64,000 bases of DNA from an uncultured Phocaeicola sp. (GTDB lineage: Bacteria > Bacteroidota > Bacteroidia > Bacteroidales > Bacteroidaceae), in the NCBI GenBank assembly GCA_947626525.1, contig CANQSM010000003.1, positions 1 through 64,000 of the forward strand. The letters are read 5' to 3'. How positions within the stretch are numbered: position 1 is the stretch's first letter; every line of letters begins with the position of its first letter. Position numbers and translations under genes: made by a program. This document shows, piece after piece, positions 17,626 through 30,808 of this stretch. A model generated the notes under the pieces. The model ran no database searches. It saw only the letters and a list, made by a program, of their open reading frames with translations, and was not told the origin of the DNA.

Positions 17626-19545
17626 ATGAAGACATTTGAAGAGTTAGGCGTTTCTGAGGAAATACTTAAAGCGATTAAAGAAATGGGGTATGAGAGTCCC
17701 ATGCCGGTACAGGAAGAAGTGATACCGTATTTACTGGGAAACGGAAATGATGTAGTCGCGTTGGCTCAGACAGGAACAGGAAAAACAGCTGCATTTGGTT
17801 TGCCGCTGATTCAGAAAATAAACGTACGTAACAGAGTGCCACAGGCACTGATACTTTGTCCCACCCGGGAATTATGTTTGCAGATTTCAGGTGATTTAAC
17901 CGATTATTCCAAATACATAGAGGATTTGAAGGTGTTGCCCGTGTATGGAGGGTCGTCCATTGAAAGCCAGATACGTAGCCTGAAGAAAGGGGTGCATATC
18001 ATTGTGGCTACGCCGGGACGTCTTATCGACTTGATGGAACGTCGTACCGTAAGTCTTGCCACCGTGAAGGATGTGGTGATGGATGAGGCTGATGAAATGC
18101 TGAACATGGGATTTACCGACAGCGTCAACGCCATTCTGGCTGATGTGCCGAAGGACCGGAATACATTACTGTTCTCGGCCACCATGAGCCCGGAAATCTC
18201 ACGTATTTCCAAAAATTATCTCCATGACGCCAAGGAGATTGTTATCGGTATAAAGAATGAGGGAAGCAAGACAGTGAACCATGTGTACTATATGGTTCAT
18301 GCTAAAGACAAGTATCTGGCCTTAAAACGTATAGCTGATTATTATCCGCAGATATACGGTATCATCTTCTGCCGCACCCGTAAGGAAACGCAGGAGATTG
18401 CCGATAAACTGATACAGGACGGTTATAATGCTGATTCGCTGCACGGTGAACTCTCTCAGGCCCAGCGTGATCTGGTGATGCAGAAGTTCCGCCAGCGTCA
18501 TTTACAGTTGCTGGTGGCTACCGATGTGGCTGCCCGCGGATTGGATGTTGACGATTTGACACATGTTATCAACTATGGTTTACCCGATGATACGGAGAGT
18601 TATACGCATCGGAGCGGGCGTACGGGACGCGCCGGAAAGACCGGTACGTCTATCGCTATCATTAACCTGCGTGAAAAGGGGAAATTGCGTGAGATAGAGA
18701 AAATTATCGGCAAGAAGTTTGTAGCCGGAGAAATGCCTACCGGAAAGCAGATTTGTGAAAAACAGTTGCTGAAGATGGTGGACGAGATTGAAAAGGTAAA
18801 GGTGAATGAGGAGGAGATCGCTTCTTTCCTTCCGGATGTCTACCGTAAGCTCGAATGGCTCGAAAAAGAAGATATCATTAAGCGGATGGTATCCCGTGAG
18901 TTTAACCGTTTTCTCGAATATTACAGTAATGCGCCGGAAATAGAAGTGCCTGCTGACGCCCGTGGAAACCGCAAAGAGAAAGAGCGTGGGAATCGGAATA
19001 CGGAGCGTGGGGGGGATCGTGAGAAACGTTCCCGGAAAGCGGAACCCGGTTATACCCGCTTGTTCATCAATATGGGTAAAACGGATAATTTCTATGCGGC
19101 ACAAGTGATAGAACTTGTTAACAAGCAGATACGTGGCAAGAAAATACAGATAGGACGTATCGACCTGATGCAGAACTTTTCTTTCTTCGAGGTTCCTGAA
19201 AGGCAGGCGCGTGAAGTGGTTTCTGCTTTGAACAATATGAAAGTGGGAGGCCGTAAGGTTGTAGTGGAAGTGGCTGGAGAAGAAAGTGGCAATGAGAGTG
19301 GACGGCGTGGCAGAAACGGAGCCTCCTCTGGCAAAGTAAGTACAGATACCCGCAAGGCTCGCAAGACAGGAAAAGAGAAAGCAGGTAAGCTCAGTAGGGA
19401 AGAACGAGGTTACACTTCGGCACGCGGACCAAAGAAGAAAGATGATTGGAAACAGTTCTTTCAGGGCAGCAAAGGTGATTTCCGGGATGAAGAGCCTGAT
19501 TTCAGTGAAGAGGGCTGGGCTATGCGTAAGCCACGGGCAAAGTGA
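17626..19545 (+). CDS. DEAD/DEAH-box ATP-dependent RNA helicase with DbpA-like RNA-binding domain
   Basis: AQTGTGKTAAFGLPL, DEAD, SATM, HRSGRTGRAGKTG motifs; C-terminal FINMGKTDNFYAAQVIELVN domain and basic tail. Confidence 0.96.
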   Translation: MKTFEELGVSEEILKAIKEMGYESPMPVQEEVIPYLLGNGNDVVALAQTGTGKTAAFGLPLIQKINVRNRVPQALILCPTRELCLQISGDLTDYSKYIEDLKVLPVYGGSSIESQIRSLKKGVHIIVATPGRLIDLMERRTVSLATVKDVVMDEADEMLNMGFTDSVNAILADVPKDRNTLLFSATMSPEISRISKNYLHDAKEIVIGIKNEGSKTVNHVYYMVHAKDKYLALKRIADYYPQIYGIIFCRTRKETQEIADKLIQDGYNADSLHGELSQAQRDLVMQKFRQRHLQLLVATDVAARGLDVDDLTHVINYGLPDDTESYTHRSGRTGRAGKTGTSIAIINLREKGKLREIEKIIGKKFVAGEMPTGKQICEKQLLKMVDEIEKVKVNEEEIASFLPDVYRKLEWLEKEDIIKRMVSREFNRFLEYYSNAPEIEVPADARGNRKEKERGNRNTERGGDREKRSRKAEPGYTRLFINMGKTDNFYAAQVIELVNKQIRGKKIQIGRIDLMQNFSFFEVPERQAREVVSALNNMKVGGRKVVVEVAGEESGNESGRRGRNGASSGKVSTDTRKARKTGKEKAGKLSREERGYTSARGPKKKDDWKQFFQGSKGDFRDEEPDFSEEGWAMRKPRAK

Positions 19546-23843: not shown

Positions 23844-24944
23844 TTGAAATGTATGGGTGTGACATTAGGAAAGAAGAGCCTGAAAGGCGGAAAAACCTCT
23901 TTGTTTCTGAACTATTGCTTTAACGGAAAACGCAGGAAGGAGTATTTGCGGTTGGTCTTGGAGCCTCCGGTCTCTTCCGAGGCGCGGCACCGTAACCGTG
24001 AGAAACTGGAACTGGCCCGCCGTATCCTGGTATGTAAGGAGCTGGAGTTTGTTGCCGGGCGCTATCGGGTGGAACGGATGATTAGGGCGAAACCGGAAGA
24101 AGAGGATTTCTTTGTGATCTTCGAACGCTTCATCGCCGATTACAGGGGGAAAGACCGGAAGACGGCGGAAGCCTCGTTGGGGCATTTGCATGCGTTCTCG
24201 AAAGTCCGCTCGTTGCCGCTGTACCATGTGACGGACTCCTTCTGCCGGCAATTCTACGATTATCTGACTACCGTGTTGCATGGTTCCACTCCGGTGGGGT
24301 ATTTCAAGAAGTTCAAGAAGTGCCTGGAGACCTGTGTGGAGAGGGATCTGCTTGCCAGGAATCCCGCCTCGAACGTGCGGCTGGTTCCGTGTGATGAGTT
24401 TACAAAAGATATTTTAAGTACGGACGAGATTAGTCGGCTGGCTCGGACTCCCTGCTCGCACGGTGAAATAAAACGGGCGTTCTTGTTCGCTTGCAACACG
24501 GGCTTGCGCTGGTGTGACATTGTCCAGTTGACCCATCGTTCGGTAGACAGGCCCAACCGGATGCTGCACCTGGTGCAAAGTAAGGTGAGGCGACACTCCC
24601 GAAAAGCCGTGTTGCACCTTACTCTGAACCGTACGGCGATGAGACTGCTGGGGACGGACCCGGCTTTTGACGGGGAGCGTGTGTTCCGGTTGCCCTCTTA
24701 TTCGTATATGCTGCGTGTGCTTCGGAAATGGGTGAGCGACTCCGGAATCTCCAAGCACATCACTTTCCATTGCGGCCGCCACTCTTTCATAACCAATATC
24801 ATGGTGAACGGCGCCAACATCAAGACAGCCTCCGAACTGGCCGGTCATTCTACCATACGGCATACCGAAAAATATGTACATGTCATAGACGAACTGAAGC
24901 GGAAGGCGGTGGACAGCCTTCCTGATTTGCCCCTTGATTTGTAA
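23844..24944 (+). CDS. Tyrosine-type site-specific recombinase/integrase
   Basis: NTGLRWCDIVQLTHRSV (Arg), ITFHCGRHSFITN (HxxR), LAGHSTIRHTEKYVHV (His/Tyr): complete catalytic set. Confidence 0.93.
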   Translation: MKCMGVTLGKKSLKGGKTSLFLNYCFNGKRRKEYLRLVLEPPVSSEARHRNREKLELARRILVCKELEFVAGRYRVERMIRAKPEEEDFFVIFERFIADYRGKDRKTAEASLGHLHAFSKVRSLPLYHVTDSFCRQFYDYLTTVLHGSTPVGYFKKFKKCLETCVERDLLARNPASNVRLVPCDEFTKDILSTDEISRLARTPCSHGEIKRAFLFACNTGLRWCDIVQLTHRSVDRPNRMLHLVQSKVRRHSRKAVLHLTLNRTAMRLLGTDPAFDGERVFRLPSYSYMLRVLRKWVSDSGISKHITFHCGRHSFITNIMVNGANIKTASELAGHSTIRHTEKYVHVIDELKRKAVDSLPDLPLDL

Positions 24945-25177
24945 CGGGCCGTACTTCGTTTGTCCCCCTTTGGGGAATGGGATGTTGTAAACGTGTGCTA
25001 TGCAATAGGTTATGTCGGGACTATAATAGTCGGCACGAATATTTCATGGCAAGATACCTCCAAAGCCCTCGGCGATACTGAGCCGGGGGCTTCGTGGTTT
25101 GTCCGCCGTTCCCGATGCCAACCTTTGCCGATTGCCCGGGCCGGCCTGACGCGAGGGCGCGGGTTGGGCTGACGGTA

Positions 25178-25269
25178 AGCCGTAAGCCTGCCCAAAGTCA
25201 AGCCGTAAGCCTGTCCAAGGTCGAGCCGCAGGCGTGTCACTGGGGGTAGCCGCAGGCCTACGGCTCGGG
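25178..25269. repeat. Degenerate ~23-bp tandem repeat, about 4 units
   Basis: agccgtaagcctgcccaaagtca / agccgtaagcctgtccaaggtcg / agccgcaggcgtgtcactgggggt / agccgcaggcctacggctcggg. Confidence 0.75.
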
Positions 25270-25390
25270 AAGTGATACGCCTGTCACTCGGACTCCTTCC
25301 ACGCTCCGGATACCTCATCGGATGCAAGAGATATGATGCCCCGCCGGAAATGCCCGTCACGAAAGGGAGGGGCGGCGAATGTGGAAGGCG

Positions 25391-25440
25391 TAAGAAAAAG
25401 TAACCCCTCGGCGGATGCGTCGGACATCGCGCGAGGGGTG
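25391..25440 (-). terminator. Rho-independent terminator downstream of the OmpA-family gene
   Basis: Minus strand: cacccctcgc...ccgaggggttactttttcttacg hairpin plus T-rich tail. Confidence 0.7.
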
Positions 25441-25473
25441 TGATAGCTAAAAAGTTGAAAAAGTAATCGCTTT

Positions 25474-26571
25474 CTATTCCGCGACGCAAATCGTAACGCG
25501 GTTCAAATCGTTTTCGGTGAAAGGCTGCACGCTGTCACCTTTGTAATCGGACAGGACGCGTGACGCCTCGATTCCGGCTTTCAGGAGCGCGTCCTTCACG
25601 CTTTGGGCCCGTTCCTTGGACAGACGCAGGTTGATGCGCTTGTTGCCCGTTCCGGCATCGGCATAACCTGTCAGCGCCACTTTGCTCTCCGGGTACTTTT
25701 GCATATAGATGACCAGACTGTCAATCTTTGCCTGTTCCTGCGGACGGATGACGGCTGAATTGATATGGAAGAATACATCGCAGCGATAGGTTTCCCGCTT
25801 TTTCTCCGCCACCTCTTGTCTGGGTTGCGGCTCTTTCCGTTCGGGTATCACTACCGGACGGGGAGTCTCCTCGGGTTCCGGATCGGGGGCGACGTATACC
25901 GGTTCGACGATGCGGCTGCCTTTCCCGAGTCTGATGGTAAGTCCCACCAAAGCGTTGAACTGCCAGTCGGCATTACCGGCTTTCTTCGAGTTGAACTTGT
26001 CCGTGAGCAGGTTTGTGTTTCCCTCTATGTTAAGTGCCAGCCGGTCGCTCAGCCGGATATCGGCTCCTACGCCTCCCCGTCCGGCAAACGAGTTCTTGCT
26101 GCCTCTCCACAGATATCCCAGTTCGCCGGAGCCGGCAGCCGCCACGTTTTCGGCGCCGTTGTCGTAGGCATGGTTGAAAGCGCCGCCGACAAAGGCGTAA
26201 AGGTTAAAGACACGTCGCGGGTTGAACCGGCAGAACAGGGCGCTGAGGTCGAATACGGCATCCACATCGCCTTGCAGGTATTTGAACTTGTACTCCTGTT
26301 TCGGATTCACCCATGCTCCCTTGGCCTGCCAGCCGCTACCGCCGAAGCGCAGGCCGAAAACAGGGGTGAAGCGATAGCCGAAATGAAGAGCGGCCGCGGG
26401 AGAGATGAGCTTGGAGAAGCCGGTCTCACCGATGGTGTGGGCGGCGCCTCCTTGTATCTGCATATACCAGTGAGGAACGAAAACCTCCTTGCTGTGTTCC
26501 GGCTCCTGGGCGAAAAGAGGCAACGTGCCTAAAGCGAGCACGCTTGCCAGTAAACTCTTTCTAATGTCCAT
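25474..26571 (-). CDS. OmpA-family outer membrane protein (beta-barrel plus peptidoglycan-binding domain)
   Basis: Signal peptide, barrel region, Pro-rich linker (DPEPEETPRPVVIPERKEPQPRQ), OmpA C-domain (HINSAVIRPQEQAKIDSLVIYMQKYPESKVALTGYADAGTGNKRINLRLSKERAQSVKDAL). Confidence 0.92.
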   Translation of the reverse strand: MDIRKSLLASVLALGTLPLFAQEPEHSKEVFVPHWYMQIQGGAAHTIGETGFSKLISPAAALHFGYRFTPVFGLRFGGSGWQAKGAWVNPKQEYKFKYLQGDVDAVFDLSALFCRFNPRRVFNLYAFVGGAFNHAYDNGAENVAAAGSGELGYLWRGSKNSFAGRGGVGADIRLSDRLALNIEGNTNLLTDKFNSKKAGNADWQFNALVGLTIRLGKGSRIVEPVYVAPDPEPEETPRPVVIPERKEPQPRQEVAEKKRETYRCDVFFHINSAVIRPQEQAKIDSLVIYMQKYPESKVALTGYADAGTGNKRINLRLSKERAQSVKDALLKAGIEASRVLSDYKGDSVQPFTENDLNRVTICVAE

Positions 26572-26588
26572 AATACAGTTTCTTATAA

Positions 26589-26690
26589 TTATTGTCTTTC
26601 TTCCTTATAGGCCTTGTCCGCGTTACGGATGGATATGCCTATGCATACCCAAATAACCATACAAACTGCCAAATACATAATGATATACAT
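26589..26690 (-). CDS. Putative 33-aa single-TM microprotein (unannotated sORF)
   Basis: MYIIMYLAVCMVIWVCIGISIRNADKAYKEERQ; AAGGAG 10 nt upstream of the ATG; -7 element TACCTTTG further upstream; stop 17 nt before the OmpA ATG. Confidence 0.65.
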   Translation of the reverse strand: MYIIMYLAVCMVIWVCIGISIRNADKAYKEERQ

Positions 26691-26723
26691 CGTCTTTCTT
26701 CTCCTTTGCGCTTCCCGTTTATA

Positions 26724-26731
26724 CAAAGGTA
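26724..26731 (-). promoter_or_regulatory. Bacteroides -7 element (TACCTTTG) for the sORF/OmpA transcription unit
   Basis: TAnnTTTG match on the minus strand, about 34 bp upstream of the sORF ATG. Confidence 0.55.
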
Positions 26732-26773
26732 AAAGGAATTGTCCGGATTAGAAAGTATTTGACGGTTTAAATA

Positions 26774-26801
26774 TAAAATATTTAAGGATCGGGAACGTTT
26801 C
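26774..26801 (-). promoter_or_regulatory. Shared 28-bp box, copy B (upstream of sORF/OmpA)
   Basis: Plus-strand taaaatatttaaggatcgggaacgtttc; 25/28 identical to 30781-30808. Confidence 0.7.
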
Positions 26802-26886
26802 CGCCCGGAAAGGGCCCTTGGCGGATGTTCTCCATACGGTCGCCGGGGCCATGGAAACGGCAACGCTTCGGGAGACACTGCCGGAA

Positions 26887-26927
26887 GAGGAAAAGAAAGG
26901 GGAACCGGACAGGCCGGTTCCCCTTTT
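26887..26927 (-). terminator. Rho-independent terminator downstream of the DUF4988-type gene
   Basis: aaaggggaaccgg-acagg-ccggttcccctttt perfect stem; minus-strand tail tttcttttcc. Confidence 0.8.
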
Positions 26928-26956
26928 AGGTTTTCATATCGCGTCACGCAGACGGA

Positions 26957-29900
26957 TTAGAGTGTCTTGCTAACTTCCACTGTGATGGTTTCCTTGATGG
27001 TACCCCACTTGTAAGTGATAACCAAAGGTATCTGGAGCTTGAACGCTTCCCTCACCTCAACGTCCTTATTCTTGTAAGTGATTGTACCGAAGTCAGGAAT
27101 TGCTGTGACAGTTCCGCTGTAAGATACTGTATTTGGTGTAGTAGTAAGCAACGTCGTCGCACCGGCCGTACCGAAGATGGTCTCGATGTCCACAAACGTG
27201 TTCGCGTCACGGTTCAGGTTCGTCTTGATCTTTCTGGTCGGATCGATGTCAATCTTCGTCACTTCGTAATACCTGTAGTAATCCAGATTCCTAGCAAAGC
27301 TGTTCAACGGAGAGTCTTTTCTCCAGTCGGTGAAGTTTATCAACTCACCGAGCTTCAGTGTACTGGTGCCTTCGTTGCCACCGTCATTGAATGCCTGATC
27401 GTTGTTGGCTTCCGCGTTCACCGGACGGATGAAGTAAGCGTCGAACTTGCCGCCATTTACAGGAACTTCCATTTCGCAACCGTTCTCATAAACTACTTCG
27501 AGGGTTGCGAAGAACGCATTCGCTTCATCATTACGTCCTACTCTGTTCAGCAATGCTTTGGCTACCTCAGTATTGGCGTAAGTAATTGTGGCGTATGGAG
27601 AATTTCCGCTCAAAGAAGCTACCAAGTTGGCATCGTTGGCACCAGCAACTTTCTGAGCACCTTCTGGCACGGCATACAGCTTGCTTTGGTCATTGCCAAC
27701 GAAGAACAAGTCATACTTGTTGCCGTCCGCATCCGTTGCTTTCGTTGCACGAGTTGTATTATCCTTAGCGAAGCGGAAATAATAGCTCATGTTACTTTCA
27801 GCGAAGCTCGGATATTTCTGAGCATCGAAGTTAGAAGAGTATGTAAATGCTACGTCATGACCTTCGAAGTTCGACAACAAGTCTTGAGCGATAGTCGCAT
27901 TGTTGGTTCCACCTGGAGTCTCGCAATAGATATCAATCTTGTTCTGTTCCGCGTTCCAGTAGTTGCTAATCTTATTACCGTCCTTGATGCTTGCCTGGAA
28001 GTTGATATCGTCAACGGTTACATTGTAAACGATAACCACTCTTTCAGGATACATGTTGTTGTTGACCACATTCGACAAGTCGGTTGCGTTGGTGGTCTTC
28101 TTGTACACAGCGTAAGCCGTGTAGGTCTTGCCGGCTACGAGCGGTGTAGTAGTCAATGTGAAGGTAACCTCATGGTTGATCTTACCGTCACTAGTATTCT
28201 GGATGCTTTCGCTGATAGTCCAGTTACCTACAAACTTCTTGTCGCTTCCTGTGGAGATAGCACTTCCATCAGTTGTAACGATCGTGTTGTCCAATTGGTA
28301 AATCAGGTGGAACTGCTCTTTGCTCAACTGCTCCAGATTGCTGCCTTCCGCCTTGTGAGCGAATGTGTACACTTCCGTACTCATGAACTCATCATTCGTT
28401 TTCCAAGTATGGTTAGTTGTGTTGCAACCCAATCCGATATGAACATCGTGGTTGATATAAATGTCATTGTCAGCCGGAGCAGCCTCATCTCCTACAATCA
28501 ACAGCTTGATGTAAGCGGCAGCCATCAACGCGTTGTTGTGCTTGTCTGTCAACTTGGCCAATACGATAGGAGCTTTACCGATACAGCTCTTGCTTTGTGT
28601 CAGGTCGTAGTTGACAGCCGTAAATGTCGTACCTTCCAATTTGGCATATTTATCCTGCGGTGTACTCTGCACGTCATATGGTATCAGTTCGAAGCTCAGT
28701 TCCAGATTATCGTTATCCTTGTATGGATAGAATTTGTGAGCGGGGGCAGCATTGAAGTTGCAGGCAGTCACCAAAGTCTTAAGGTCGACACCCTTTATGG
28801 CCTCGGAATAAAGGATCTGCTGAACCAGATGAGCTGTTCCGGCAGTAGCCCTGTTGTCTGCACCCACTAAAGCTACTTGAGCTATAGCATCTCGTAGGCT
28901 GAGAGCGAAATGGTGCGTCTCATCATTAATATTCTCAGCATTATCTTTGGTTAAGTGCTTGTCTGCCAATTTCAAATTCAATTGCTCACTCTTGTTGATA
29001 ACGCCTACATATTCGGTTGTGTACACTTCTCCTTCCTTGCTTTCGAACTGGAGTGCGATTTCATCCAATTTGTCAGCGTCAGTAGTCAGTCCTGCCGGAG
29101 CGGCATCCAGTGTCACTACGAACACGCCTGGTTGGCCCTCAGCCACTTTTGTGGATTTCCATGTAATCACGCCATCTCTTGCGCGAGTCTCTTTCTCCAC
29201 TGTTGCGTTCAGAATCTTAGCCTTTCCCGCATCAACCAATTGGTCCGGTGTGGCACTGGCAGGATTCACATGGAAGCGCGGAGCGGCCGTATTCGGCAGA
29301 TACTGGATAACCGGAGCATTTTGTACTCTCTTCTCTACTACTGCATTATTCACCTTATCAATTTCTAATTCCTTATAATTGTCCCTGTTGAAGACGATGA
29401 CTCTCTCGCCCCAACCATCCAGAATCTTCTCCGGAATGTATTCGAAGCTGGAGATAGGCAGGCTGTCAGTGATATAGAATGAGTTCTCGATTGTTTCATT
29501 CCCGATTTTCGAGCTAATCATATAACCGATTACTTCCCCCTCTTGGGTTATCGCTGTAATGGTCGTCTCCGGTTCGTCCGGTATAGCCGGAATAGTCGGA
29601 ATGATTACGCTGGTTGCCTTGTATTCACCCTCCGGGTCACCGTAGCATACCGTCTTCTTGCCATCAATTTCTTTTACGAACATCTTGGTCGGGTCAAACT
29701 CCGGAGTCACCGTATTGTCGTTCGTGTCAACAACTTCCGCTACATCCCCTACGACGGTGCCGGTTCCCTTCTCCACCAACTTGATGGTAGTCTTATTGCC
29801 TTCCTGGCTTACCTTCAATTCATATTCCGTATTGACGTCTGCTCCCGGTTTCGTGTCAGCGTCCGAAATGTGATAGGTACTTGCTGCCCCGTTGGATGGC

Positions 29901-30127
29901 GTAATGGTTAAAGTACGGGTCGCGTCATCATATGTCACACCTTTGACATACGCAATTTGACCGAAAGCGCTGAAATCGCTTTTCAAATCGGCAAGCCCTT
30001 TCTCTACTGCGTCTACCCGGCTTGTCAGGTCGTCGATGTCGTCATCGTAGTCCTTACAACCCGTAAATGTAACCGTAGCGAGCGCAAAGGCTCCGAACAG
30101 AATTGCATTTAGATACTTTTTGTTCAT
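26957..30127 (-). CDS. Large DUF4988-type surface lipoprotein
   Basis: Lipobox (ALATVTFTGCKDYDDDID) followed by coiled coil (LTSRVDAVEKGLADLKSDFSAF); 1056 aa. Confidence 0.8.
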   Translation of the reverse strand: MNKKYLNAILFGAFALATVTFTGCKDYDDDIDDLTSRVDAVEKGLADLKSDFSAFGQIAYVKGVTYDDATRTLTITPSNGAASTYHISDADTKPGADVNTEYELKVSQEGNKTTIKLVEKGTGTVVGDVAEVVDTNDNTVTPEFDPTKMFVKEIDGKKTVCYGDPEGEYKATSVIIPTIPAIPDEPETTITAITQEGEVIGYMISSKIGNETIENSFYITDSLPISSFEYIPEKILDGWGERVIVFNRDNYKELEIDKVNNAVVEKRVQNAPVIQYLPNTAAPRFHVNPASATPDQLVDAGKAKILNATVEKETRARDGVITWKSTKVAEGQPGVFVVTLDAAPAGLTTDADKLDEIALQFESKEGEVYTTEYVGVINKSEQLNLKLADKHLTKDNAENINDETHHFALSLRDAIAQVALVGADNRATAGTAHLVQQILYSEAIKGVDLKTLVTACNFNAAPAHKFYPYKDNDNLELSFELIPYDVQSTPQDKYAKLEGTTFTAVNYDLTQSKSCIGKAPIVLAKLTDKHNNALMAAAYIKLLIVGDEAAPADNDIYINHDVHIGLGCNTTNHTWKTNDEFMSTEVYTFAHKAEGSNLEQLSKEQFHLIYQLDNTIVTTDGSAISTGSDKKFVGNWTISESIQNTSDGKINHEVTFTLTTTPLVAGKTYTAYAVYKKTTNATDLSNVVNNNMYPERVVIVYNVTVDDINFQASIKDGNKISNYWNAEQNKIDIYCETPGGTNNATIAQDLLSNFEGHDVAFTYSSNFDAQKYPSFAESNMSYYFRFAKDNTTRATKATDADGNKYDLFFVGNDQSKLYAVPEGAQKVAGANDANLVASLSGNSPYATITYANTEVAKALLNRVGRNDEANAFFATLEVVYENGCEMEVPVNGGKFDAYFIRPVNAEANNDQAFNDGGNEGTSTLKLGELINFTDWRKDSPLNSFARNLDYYRYYEVTKIDIDPTRKIKTNLNRDANTFVDIETIFGTAGATTLLTTTPNTVSYSGTVTAIPDFGTITYKNKDVEVREAFKLQIPLVITYKWGTIKETITVEVSKTL

Positions 30128-30191
30128 AATAGATAAAACTTTAAATTTATAAATTTAAAAAATAAATAATTGATTAGTCTTTCTCTTTACT

Positions 30192-30680
30192 TTATTTGTG
30201 GCTTGGGAGGCAACCCTTGTCCTCCCGATATGCCGGCATCAGTCTGTTTGTTTTCTGTTTTTCTTTCCTTTCATTTATTGTGTTCATGTTTTCAATCATA
30301 TATTGCAGGGGCGTGATTCGCTCCATTTTCTTAAACGAGGCATAGAACGCGCTCTTGGACGCGAAACCGCACATCGAAGGCATACGGCATACCTTGTCCT
30401 GACACTCCTTCAACAAAGTCTTGGCATACTGTATCCGATACCAATTGACCAAATATTTCAAGTTACACCCGAAACCCTCATTGATGGCATTCGACAAATA
30501 GGTAGTATTCGTGCCGACTATTGAACTAAACTTGGTCAAGGAGAGCGTTGAATCCAGATATACCTTATTTATATTCAGATGGTACAGGACTTTCTTGCAT
30601 AGAGCATACTTCTGCCTTTCTTCAGAAATAGCGGCAAGGGCCCTCTCCCACGTTTCAAAGGTATGGTGCGTTTGGTTCAT
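30192..30680 (-). CDS. Standalone AraC-type helix-turn-helix regulator
   Basis: KFSSIVGTNTTYLSNAINEGFGCNLKYLVNWYRIQYAKTLL ... CGFASKSAFYASFKKMERITPLQYM: two HTH motifs of HTH_18, no sensor domain. Confidence 0.85.
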   Translation of the reverse strand: MNQTHHTFETWERALAAISEERQKYALCKKVLYHLNINKVYLDSTLSLTKFSSIVGTNTTYLSNAINEGFGCNLKYLVNWYRIQYAKTLLKECQDKVCRMPSMCGFASKSAFYASFKKMERITPLQYMIENMNTINERKEKQKTNRLMPAYREDKGCLPSHK

Positions 30681-30718
30681 CGCTTAATAATTAATCAGGA
30701 ACTTTTCGTTTTTAGTGG

Positions 30719-30726
30719 CAAAAATA
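30719..30726 (-). promoter_or_regulatory. Bacteroides -7 element (TATTTTTG) for the HTH/DUF4988 transcription unit
   Basis: TAnnTTTG match on the minus strand, about 39 bp upstream of the ATG at 30680. Confidence 0.4.
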
Positions 30727-30780
30727 TCGGTTTTGTTCTCATCTGACAATATTTTATAGGAAAAATAAGGAATAGGAAAG

Positions 30781-30808
30781 TAAAATTTTTAAGAAACGGG
30801 AACGTTTC
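30781..30808 (-). promoter_or_regulatory. Shared 28-bp box, copy A (upstream of the HTH regulator)
   Basis: Plus-strand taaaatttttaagaaacgggaacgtttc; 25/28 identical to 26774-26801. Confidence 0.7.

Follow-up and report, generated by a model that had tools for sequence, protein, structure and literature searches.

The window, the whole 64,000-nucleotide stretch of DNA that was analysed, contains a surface-protein locus beside a site-specific recombinase gene, with the following genes and features:

23844..24944, plus strand: tyrosine recombinase, 366 aa (PF00589)
25474..26571, minus strand: OmpA-type outer membrane protein, 365 aa (PF00691, E 1.8e-13)
26589..26690, minus strand: membrane sORF, 33 aa, between the OmpA promoter and OmpA
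26896..26926, minus strand: perfect 13-bp inverted repeat, likely the lipoprotein-gene terminator, parting the two transcription units
26957..30127, minus strand: lipoprotein, 1056 aa, with lipobox TFTGC and N-terminus KDYDDDID, 64 bp downstream of the HTH gene
30192..30680, minus strand: AraC-type HTH regulator, 162 aa, HTH_18 at residues 53-127; intact (ON state)

The HTH_18 domain is complete (PF12833, profile positions 3-77 of 80, E 3.7e-12), and the recombinase alignment contains the invariant residues R222, K247, H309, R312, H335 and Y344, which we take to have catalytic roles. One relative of the 1056-aa lipoprotein matches DUF4988, and a PDB sequence search with the lipoprotein itself gave no match. 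A peptide resembling the 33-aa sORF is present in the related genome G014.

The two boxes and their promoters

Each of the two transcription units is preceded by a copy of a 28-bp box and by a -7 element:

30781..30808, minus strand: box A, 28 bp, conserved core at 30781-30802, minus-strand reading TTCCCGTTTCTTAAAAATTTTA
30719..30726, minus strand: HTH promoter -7 element TATTTTTG, with TTGTCAGATG upstream, as in relatives
26774..26801, minus strand: box B, 28 bp, conserved core at 26774-26795, minus-strand reading TTCCCGATCCTTAAATATTTTA
26724..26731, minus strand: sORF/OmpA promoter -7 element TACCTTTG

As an earlier, sequence-only reading of the window had described, the boxes are direct copies, identical at 25 of 28 positions and sharing the 12-mer CGGGAACGTTTC; with a repeat finder the matching stretch grows to 31 nt (87%). 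One direct pair with at least 25 of 28 matches within 12 kb was observed between 18 and 38 kb of the window, as against none in 120 first-order Markov simulations. The start codons (ATG) of HTH and the sORF lie 101-128 bp downstream of box A and 84-111 bp downstream of box B, respectively, in agreement with the earlier estimates (about 100-130 and 85-110 bp), and both copies do stand upstream of a TAnnTTTG-like -7 element, as that reading had it. The CTTAAA of box A begins 67 bp upstream of the HTH -7 element, and that of box B 55 bp upstream of the -7 element of the OmpA unit. There are 43 TAnnTTTG sites in the window, and only those of HTH and sORF/OmpA have a core box 40-90 bp upstream.

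Comparison with relatives gives a conserved core of TTCC-N5-CTTAAAWA, reading towards the genes. The 12-mer stressed in the sequence-only reading is indeed identical in both copies, but is mostly specific to this window, only its TTCC being kept in relatives; it occurs four times in the genome, once within a helicase ORF at 19023. A LacI-type palindrome reading of the 12-mer, for which the symmetry of copy B is good, was rejected on this lack of conservation, and an ECF-type -35 reading of the plus-strand GGGAAC was rejected because copy B has no gene in that direction. The idea that box A controls the divergent Gate transporter was also set aside, since the boxes and their spacing track HTH, OmpA and DUF4988, and elsewhere other genes flank the locus.

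The pattern NTCC-N5-NTTAAAW precedes the -7 element in all 23 promoters examined, an invariance that is partly by construction, as TCC and TTAAA belonged to the search patterns; the independent evidence is the association with genes and the spacing. The spacing to the -7 element is 66-67 bp in 16 HTH promoters, 55-57 bp in six OmpA promoters and 66 bp in one DUF4988 promoter, the HTH and OmpA classes differing by about one helical turn. The HTH promoters are homologous to one another, and thus only the comparison between HTH, OmpA and DUF4988 promoters and the blind scan described below are independent. Standing 45-61 bp ahead of TAnnTTTG, the loose motif CTTAAAWA is mildly common (about nine per genome, against about four for its reverse complement) and was rejected by itself as too frequent to be specific.

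Occurrence of the box in relatives

The full pattern, core plus TAnnTTTG, has exactly two matches in the 3.77-Mb genome from which the window comes, namely boxes A and B. A blind scan of 251 Bacteroidaceae genomes, in which gene identity was ignored, listed 35 matches, the reversed pattern giving about 14, and 16 of the 35 listed stand in front of a homologue of the HTH or OmpA described here; the other 19 are unexplained or due to chance. Six scrambled cores returned 0, 0, 0, 15, 1 and 0 matches compared with 82 for the real core, counts that are redundant through overlapping loci. Among 15 genomes of the same genus, the box was found in nine of the ten with a close HTH homologue and in one of the five without.

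Beyond the genus, genome G066 carries the box before all three of HTH, DUF4988 and OmpA, and neither a recombinase nor an inverted site was found there in 19 kb. In genome G012, OmpA and the HTH locus are on separate contigs, and the OmpA box is still present at 55 bp. More distant OmpA homologues (at most 44%) were without the box. The scan of this and related genomes, which had been proposed as a check, ties the box to HTH/OmpA promoters and finds it conserved in several genera.

The inverted repeat and the states of the regulator gene

The sequence-only reading overlooked an inverted repeat, perfect over 17 bp, with one arm in the HTH gene and the other next to the recombinase gene:

25025..25041, plus strand: left arm, AATAGTCGGCACGAATA, 80 bp 3' of the recombinase gene
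30506..30522, minus strand: right arm, in the HTH gene at codons 53-58 (IVGTN), where the DNA-binding domain begins
25025..30522, no strand: predicted 5.5-kb invertible segment, containing OmpA, the sORF, box B, the lipoprotein gene and the C-terminal part of HTH

A perfect inverted repeat of this length was reached in two of 60 simulations. Box A and the HTH promoter lie outside the predicted segment, and inversion in silico leaves a 102-aa ORF without the DNA-binding domain. Inverted repeats flanking a segment beside a recombinase, as found here, are a mark of an intragenic invertible element, and the 17-bp repeat is likely the recombinase's site pair, a much better candidate than the boxes. 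Through it, judging from the layout of the locus, the nearby recombinase could flip the HTH gene on or off. IVGTN is also a conserved protein motif, and conservation of the site in HTH alone is thus no evidence of recombination. A near-match to the crossover site occurs on contig G000:C107, where no HTH, integrase or OmpA homologue was found.

Repeats at the matching HTH codons and 3' of the integrase are also present in G014, G008, G013 and G001, and G011 has a related repeat pair. The HTH gene is intact (ON) in G000 and G008, and split (OFF) in G003, G014, G001, G011, G012 and G013. The loci have ruvB-integrase on one flank, except in G011, and the Gate transporter is on the other flank in the closest relatives; both orientations are found among homologous loci with conserved outer flanks. 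In G014, the orientation of OmpA is opposite to that of the lipoprotein gene. A number of contigs stop 90-300 bp beyond the integrase, which is only suggestive as to both orientations occurring in one population. Phocaeicola vulgatus ATCC 8482 possesses two alternative cassettes of HTH C-terminus and DUF4988 lipoprotein in inverted orientation, keeping an intact HTH copy plus the second cassette; the candidate invertible segment there is 17 kb long.

Rival readings and a candidate circuit

The boxes are repeated and lie near a recombinase gene, and the sequence-only reading had offered, as its alternative, that they are direct-repeat crossover sites, 4 kb apart, for deletion or excision by the tyrosine recombinase. 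This is now scarcely credible: boxes occur in G066, where no recombinase was detected, and at the unlinked OmpA of G012, their spacing to the promoter is fixed, a box-to-box deletion was seen in no relative examined, and it is the perfect inverted repeat at 25025-25041 and 30506-30522 that adjoins the recombinase gene. The boxes are a cis-regulatory element and not a crossover site. That they are generic A/T-rich UP-type elements with a chance similarity and no specific regulator might be supposed from their composition, half of the box being A/T and its loose A/T part mildly common before promoters, yet this is very unlikely given the TTCC at fixed register, the result of the 120 simulations and the association with the same genes across genera. 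It is unlikely, to a lesser degree, that the boxes serve another regulator, such as a global activator, with HTH acting elsewhere or passively following. Bacteroidaceae promoters do show a mild excess of loose AT-rich elements upstream, but the refined box is concentrated at HTH, OmpA and DUF4988 promoters and, within the genus, accompanies close HTH homologues; having only two sites in the genome also argues against a global regulator, which would be expected to have many more.

A further objection bears on the switch and not on the box, namely that the split HTH genes are decayed pseudogenes or assembly artefacts and the locus in the window is fixed ON. Many of the genomes are fragmented MAGs and the inverted arms are short (17 bp), but G011, a genome of three contigs, and large contigs of G001, G012 and G014 show the N- and C-terminal parts of HTH on opposite strands flanking the segment, and P. 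vulgatus retains an intact copy alongside its second cassette, making this explanation rather improbable.

The simplest reading of the boxes is that they are operators for the AraC-type HTH protein. The earlier proposal of an operator that couples OmpA to the HTH/DUF4988 unit draws strong comparative support from the fixed spacing, the occurrence in several genera, the unlinked OmpA of G012 and the three promoters of G066, while binding by HTH is a part of it that we infer. Taken with the inverted repeat, the arrangement makes it probable that this is one HTH-controlled regulon with two operators, in which the regulator gene is itself switched by recombinase inversion. The HTH protein would bind TTCC-N5-CTTAAAWA through two major-groove contacts about one turn apart, acting upstream of two promoters, that of its own operon, to which the S-layer-like lipoprotein gene belongs, and that of sORF/OmpA, so that lipoprotein and OmpA would be made together. 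Its role at the boxes is most likely that of an activator rather than a repressor. In living cells of this strain, the adjacent recombinase would invert the 5.5-kb segment between the 17-bp repeats, cutting the HTH gene at its DNA-binding domain, parting the lipoprotein from its promoter and leaving OmpA without its activator.

The locus resembles Bacteroides phase-variable S-layer/OmpA loci, except that the predicted switch sits in the regulator gene. In common with the BT1927-BT1926 loci of Bacteroides thetaiotaomicron (PMC12548429, PMC12118408, PMC12578637), there is a large surface lipoprotein paired with a beta-barrel/OmpA protein of the outer membrane, a nearby site-specific integrase (here the PF00589 tyrosine recombinase) and DNA inversion between short inverted repeats, here predicted from sequence. 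In the BT1927 type, however, the promoter itself inverts between 19-bp repeats, CCGTTACCTABVRAGTAAC (PMC12548429, PMC12118408, PMC12578637), whereas this locus has the repeat AATAGTCGGCACGAATA and a predicted segment of 5.5 kb that excludes the HTH promoter, one predicted crossover falls within the coding sequence of the AraC-type regulator, and OmpA has its own promoter with a candidate shared operator. In another known system, outer-surface loci are coordinated by a tyrosine recombinase and coupling in trans occurs between two loci, as is proposed here. The coupling in that system links two invertible promoters, its mechanism being unknown; for the present locus, a candidate operator and regulator can be put forward. 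Intragenic invertible regions and shufflons of gut Bacteroidales (PMC10939037; review PMC12632263) likewise invert within coding sequence and switch cassettes, as in P. vulgatus. AraC-family autoregulators (HTH_18) share the DNA-binding domain of two HTHs (Pfam), and their upstream sites likewise keep a fixed helical phase, but here there is no recognised ligand domain and the inversion site is in the gene itself.

The circuit of HTH, operator, lipoprotein and OmpA was not found described in the text of the papers searched. There are about even grounds for and against regarding it as a distinct phase-variation circuit, in which a flip in the coding sequence of an autoregulated AraC-type activator, at its DNA-binding domain and not at a promoter, would switch a cis-linked S-layer-like lipoprotein together with OmpA in trans via a shared operator; in loci of the P. 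vulgatus type, the flip would swap whole cassettes of regulator C-terminus and lipoprotein.

Phase-variable S-layer lipoproteins of gut Bacteroides affect resistance to phages and complement (PMC12548429), and no description of how lipoprotein and outer-membrane partner stay in step was found in the literature searched. A short candidate operator, a candidate regulator and exact predicted crossover sites can now be named. P. vulgatus, a common gut species, shows the same arrangement in strain ATCC 8482, which makes direct tests possible there. A flip of the regulator would offer a route for one inversion to reach unlinked genes.

A shared box ahead of the regulator and OmpA

The surface locus in the window carries a 28-bp box in two copies, and its parts are as follows:

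23844-24944, + strand: tyrosine recombinase (integrase) gene
25025-25041 and 30506-30522: arms of a perfect 17-bp inverted repeat, AATAGTCGGCACGAATA
25474-26571, - strand: OmpA gene
26589-26690, - strand: 33-aa membrane peptide, MYIIMYLAVCMVIWVCIGISIRNADKAYKEERQ, in the interval separating OmpA from its promoter
26774-26801, - strand: box B
26957-30127: DUF4988-like lipoprotein gene
30192-30680, - strand: AraC-type HTH gene
30781-30808, - strand: box A

As the sequence-only reading had claimed, the copies agree at 25 of 28 positions, share one orientation relative to transcription and are each followed by a TAnnTTTG -7 element. No comparable pair arose in any of 120 simulated sequences with matching dinucleotide make-up, and the core box stands 40–90 bp upstream of just two of the window's 43 TAnnTTTG sites, namely these. 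The 12-mer pointed out in that reading did not hold up when upstream regions of homologous genes were compared, being window-specific except for TTCC; in the direction of the gene, the conserved part reads TTCC-N5-CTTAAAWA, and A/T-rich sequence comes after it. CTTAAA starts 66–67 bp ahead of the -7 element in all 16 HTH promoters examined (the P. vulgatus box lies at 66 bp), at 66 bp in the single DUF4988 promoter, and 55–57 bp ahead in six OmpA promoters. The two distances differ by 10–12 bp, roughly a helical turn, which would place a bound protein on a similar face of the DNA.

The scan proposed earlier was run gene-blind across 251 Bacteroidaceae genomes (TTCC-N6-TTAAAWA-N46..60-TAnnTTTG), and the window's own genome returned exactly two matches, both boxes. 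Sixteen of the 35 listed matches lie ahead of HTH or of the OmpA gene that partners it; a reversed-pattern control gave about 14 matches. Other genera than the window's are reached, with matches at HTH (G108, G073 and G090) and OmpA (G066). Downstream of two in-genus matches (G004, L276 2163; G007, L277 3425), neither an HTH nor an OmpA gene was identified; these are possibly further regulon members or chance.

The boxes had been proposed as either operators or recombinase crossover sites. In the related genome G012, OmpA and the HTH locus are on different contigs and the OmpA box is kept at 55 bp, which points to a diffusible factor. In G066, HTH, lipoprotein and OmpA genes all have the box, and neither recombinase nor inverted site was found within 19 kb; this ties the box to the regulon and not to recombination. 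Most likely, the HTH protein would bind the box and act as activator of both the sORF/OmpA unit and the operon that encodes it. The 33-aa peptide is probably translated, since a similar one (IWIAIGLSIHNANKHYKKE) precedes OmpA in G014.

An inverted repeat within the regulator gene

The left arm of the 17-bp repeat lies 80 bp 3' of the recombinase gene and the right arm within HTH codons 53–58, at the start of the HTH_18 domain; judged from sequence, these are likely the crossover sites. Four genomes (G014, G008, G013 and G001) have equivalent repeats in both places, at these HTH codons and downstream of the integrase gene, and G011 has a related pair. Because IVGTN in the HTH arm is also a conserved protein motif, that arm alone is weak evidence, and the identical second arm adjoining the integrase is the strong part. 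A 23-bp tandem repeat (25177-25228, 2.3 copies) lies between the left arm and the OmpA 3' end.

Among genomes of this genus, G008 has an intact HTH gene like that of the window, whereas G014, G003, G001, G011, G012 and G013 carry its N- and C-terminal parts at separate places, always on opposite strands where they share a contig. Split loci have ruvB-integrase at one end, G011 excepted, and a Gate transporter at the other in the closest relatives. The inverted form of the window layout is seen in G003, where OmpA and the HTH N-terminus converge, although the two ends of this locus lie on separate contigs. In silico inversion of the window segment leaves a 102-aa HTH N-terminal ORF without domain and brings the HTH domain beside the integrase. 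Through this cut in the regulator gene, the recombinase would switch the whole set; we infer HTH binding to the box, activation as its sign, and inversion in living cells.

Three separate split HTH/DUF4988 loci occur in G011 (L062, L063 and L064), and each has a box; at only one of them does an integrase lie within the stretch examined. In G014 (L061 6246-7334), OmpA and the lipoprotein gene point in opposite directions, an arrangement shared by neither the window nor G008 that suggests a second rearrangement or nested inversion. Eight public contigs (L078, L079, L081, L082, L083, L087, L090 and L093) stop ~90–300 bp beyond the stop codon of the integrase gene, as would happen if the sequence that follows were duplicated or occurred in two orientations.

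Known surface loci and the P. vulgatus cassettes

In B. thetaiotaomicron, BT1927/BT1926 encode a phase-variable S-layer lipoprotein and its putative outer-membrane anchor (PMC12578637), and integrases and OmpA-family genes are found close to related loci (PMC12118408). By analogy with these, the window lipoprotein may have an S-layer role; the protein itself showed no significant Pfam domain and had no PDB match. The promoter inversion of BT1927-type loci was not found at the window locus, which is thus described as working like them, with no claim of membership. Earlier work has already described promoter inversion at S-layer/OmpA loci, inversions within genes, and coupling in trans between outer-surface loci (PMC12548429, PMC12118408, PMC10939037, PMC4747536, PMC12632263). 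The novelty would lie in the combination, as no description of inversion within an AraC-type gene sharing its operator with OmpA was found in the literature covered.

In the complete genome of P. vulgatus ATCC 8482, one HTH-DUF4988 pair is intact and another, HTH-C-terminus/DUF4988, adjoins the integrase; the two are inverted and about 17 kb apart:

L273 1893-5558 and 16144-19195, inverted: HTH-C-terminus/DUF4988 cassettes around one HTH promoter

The interval between them contains fimbrillin-like genes and a gene for a clostripain-family protease. Blocks of 62 and 76 bp are identical between the pairs, and in the second copy the GTN motif is closely preceded by stop codons. G090 has the same two-pair layout and G073 similar inverted DUF4988 copies. 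The P. vulgatus cassettes are an apparent surface-lipoprotein switch, in which inversion, if it occurs, would swap both the lipoproteins and the C-terminal half of the regulator.
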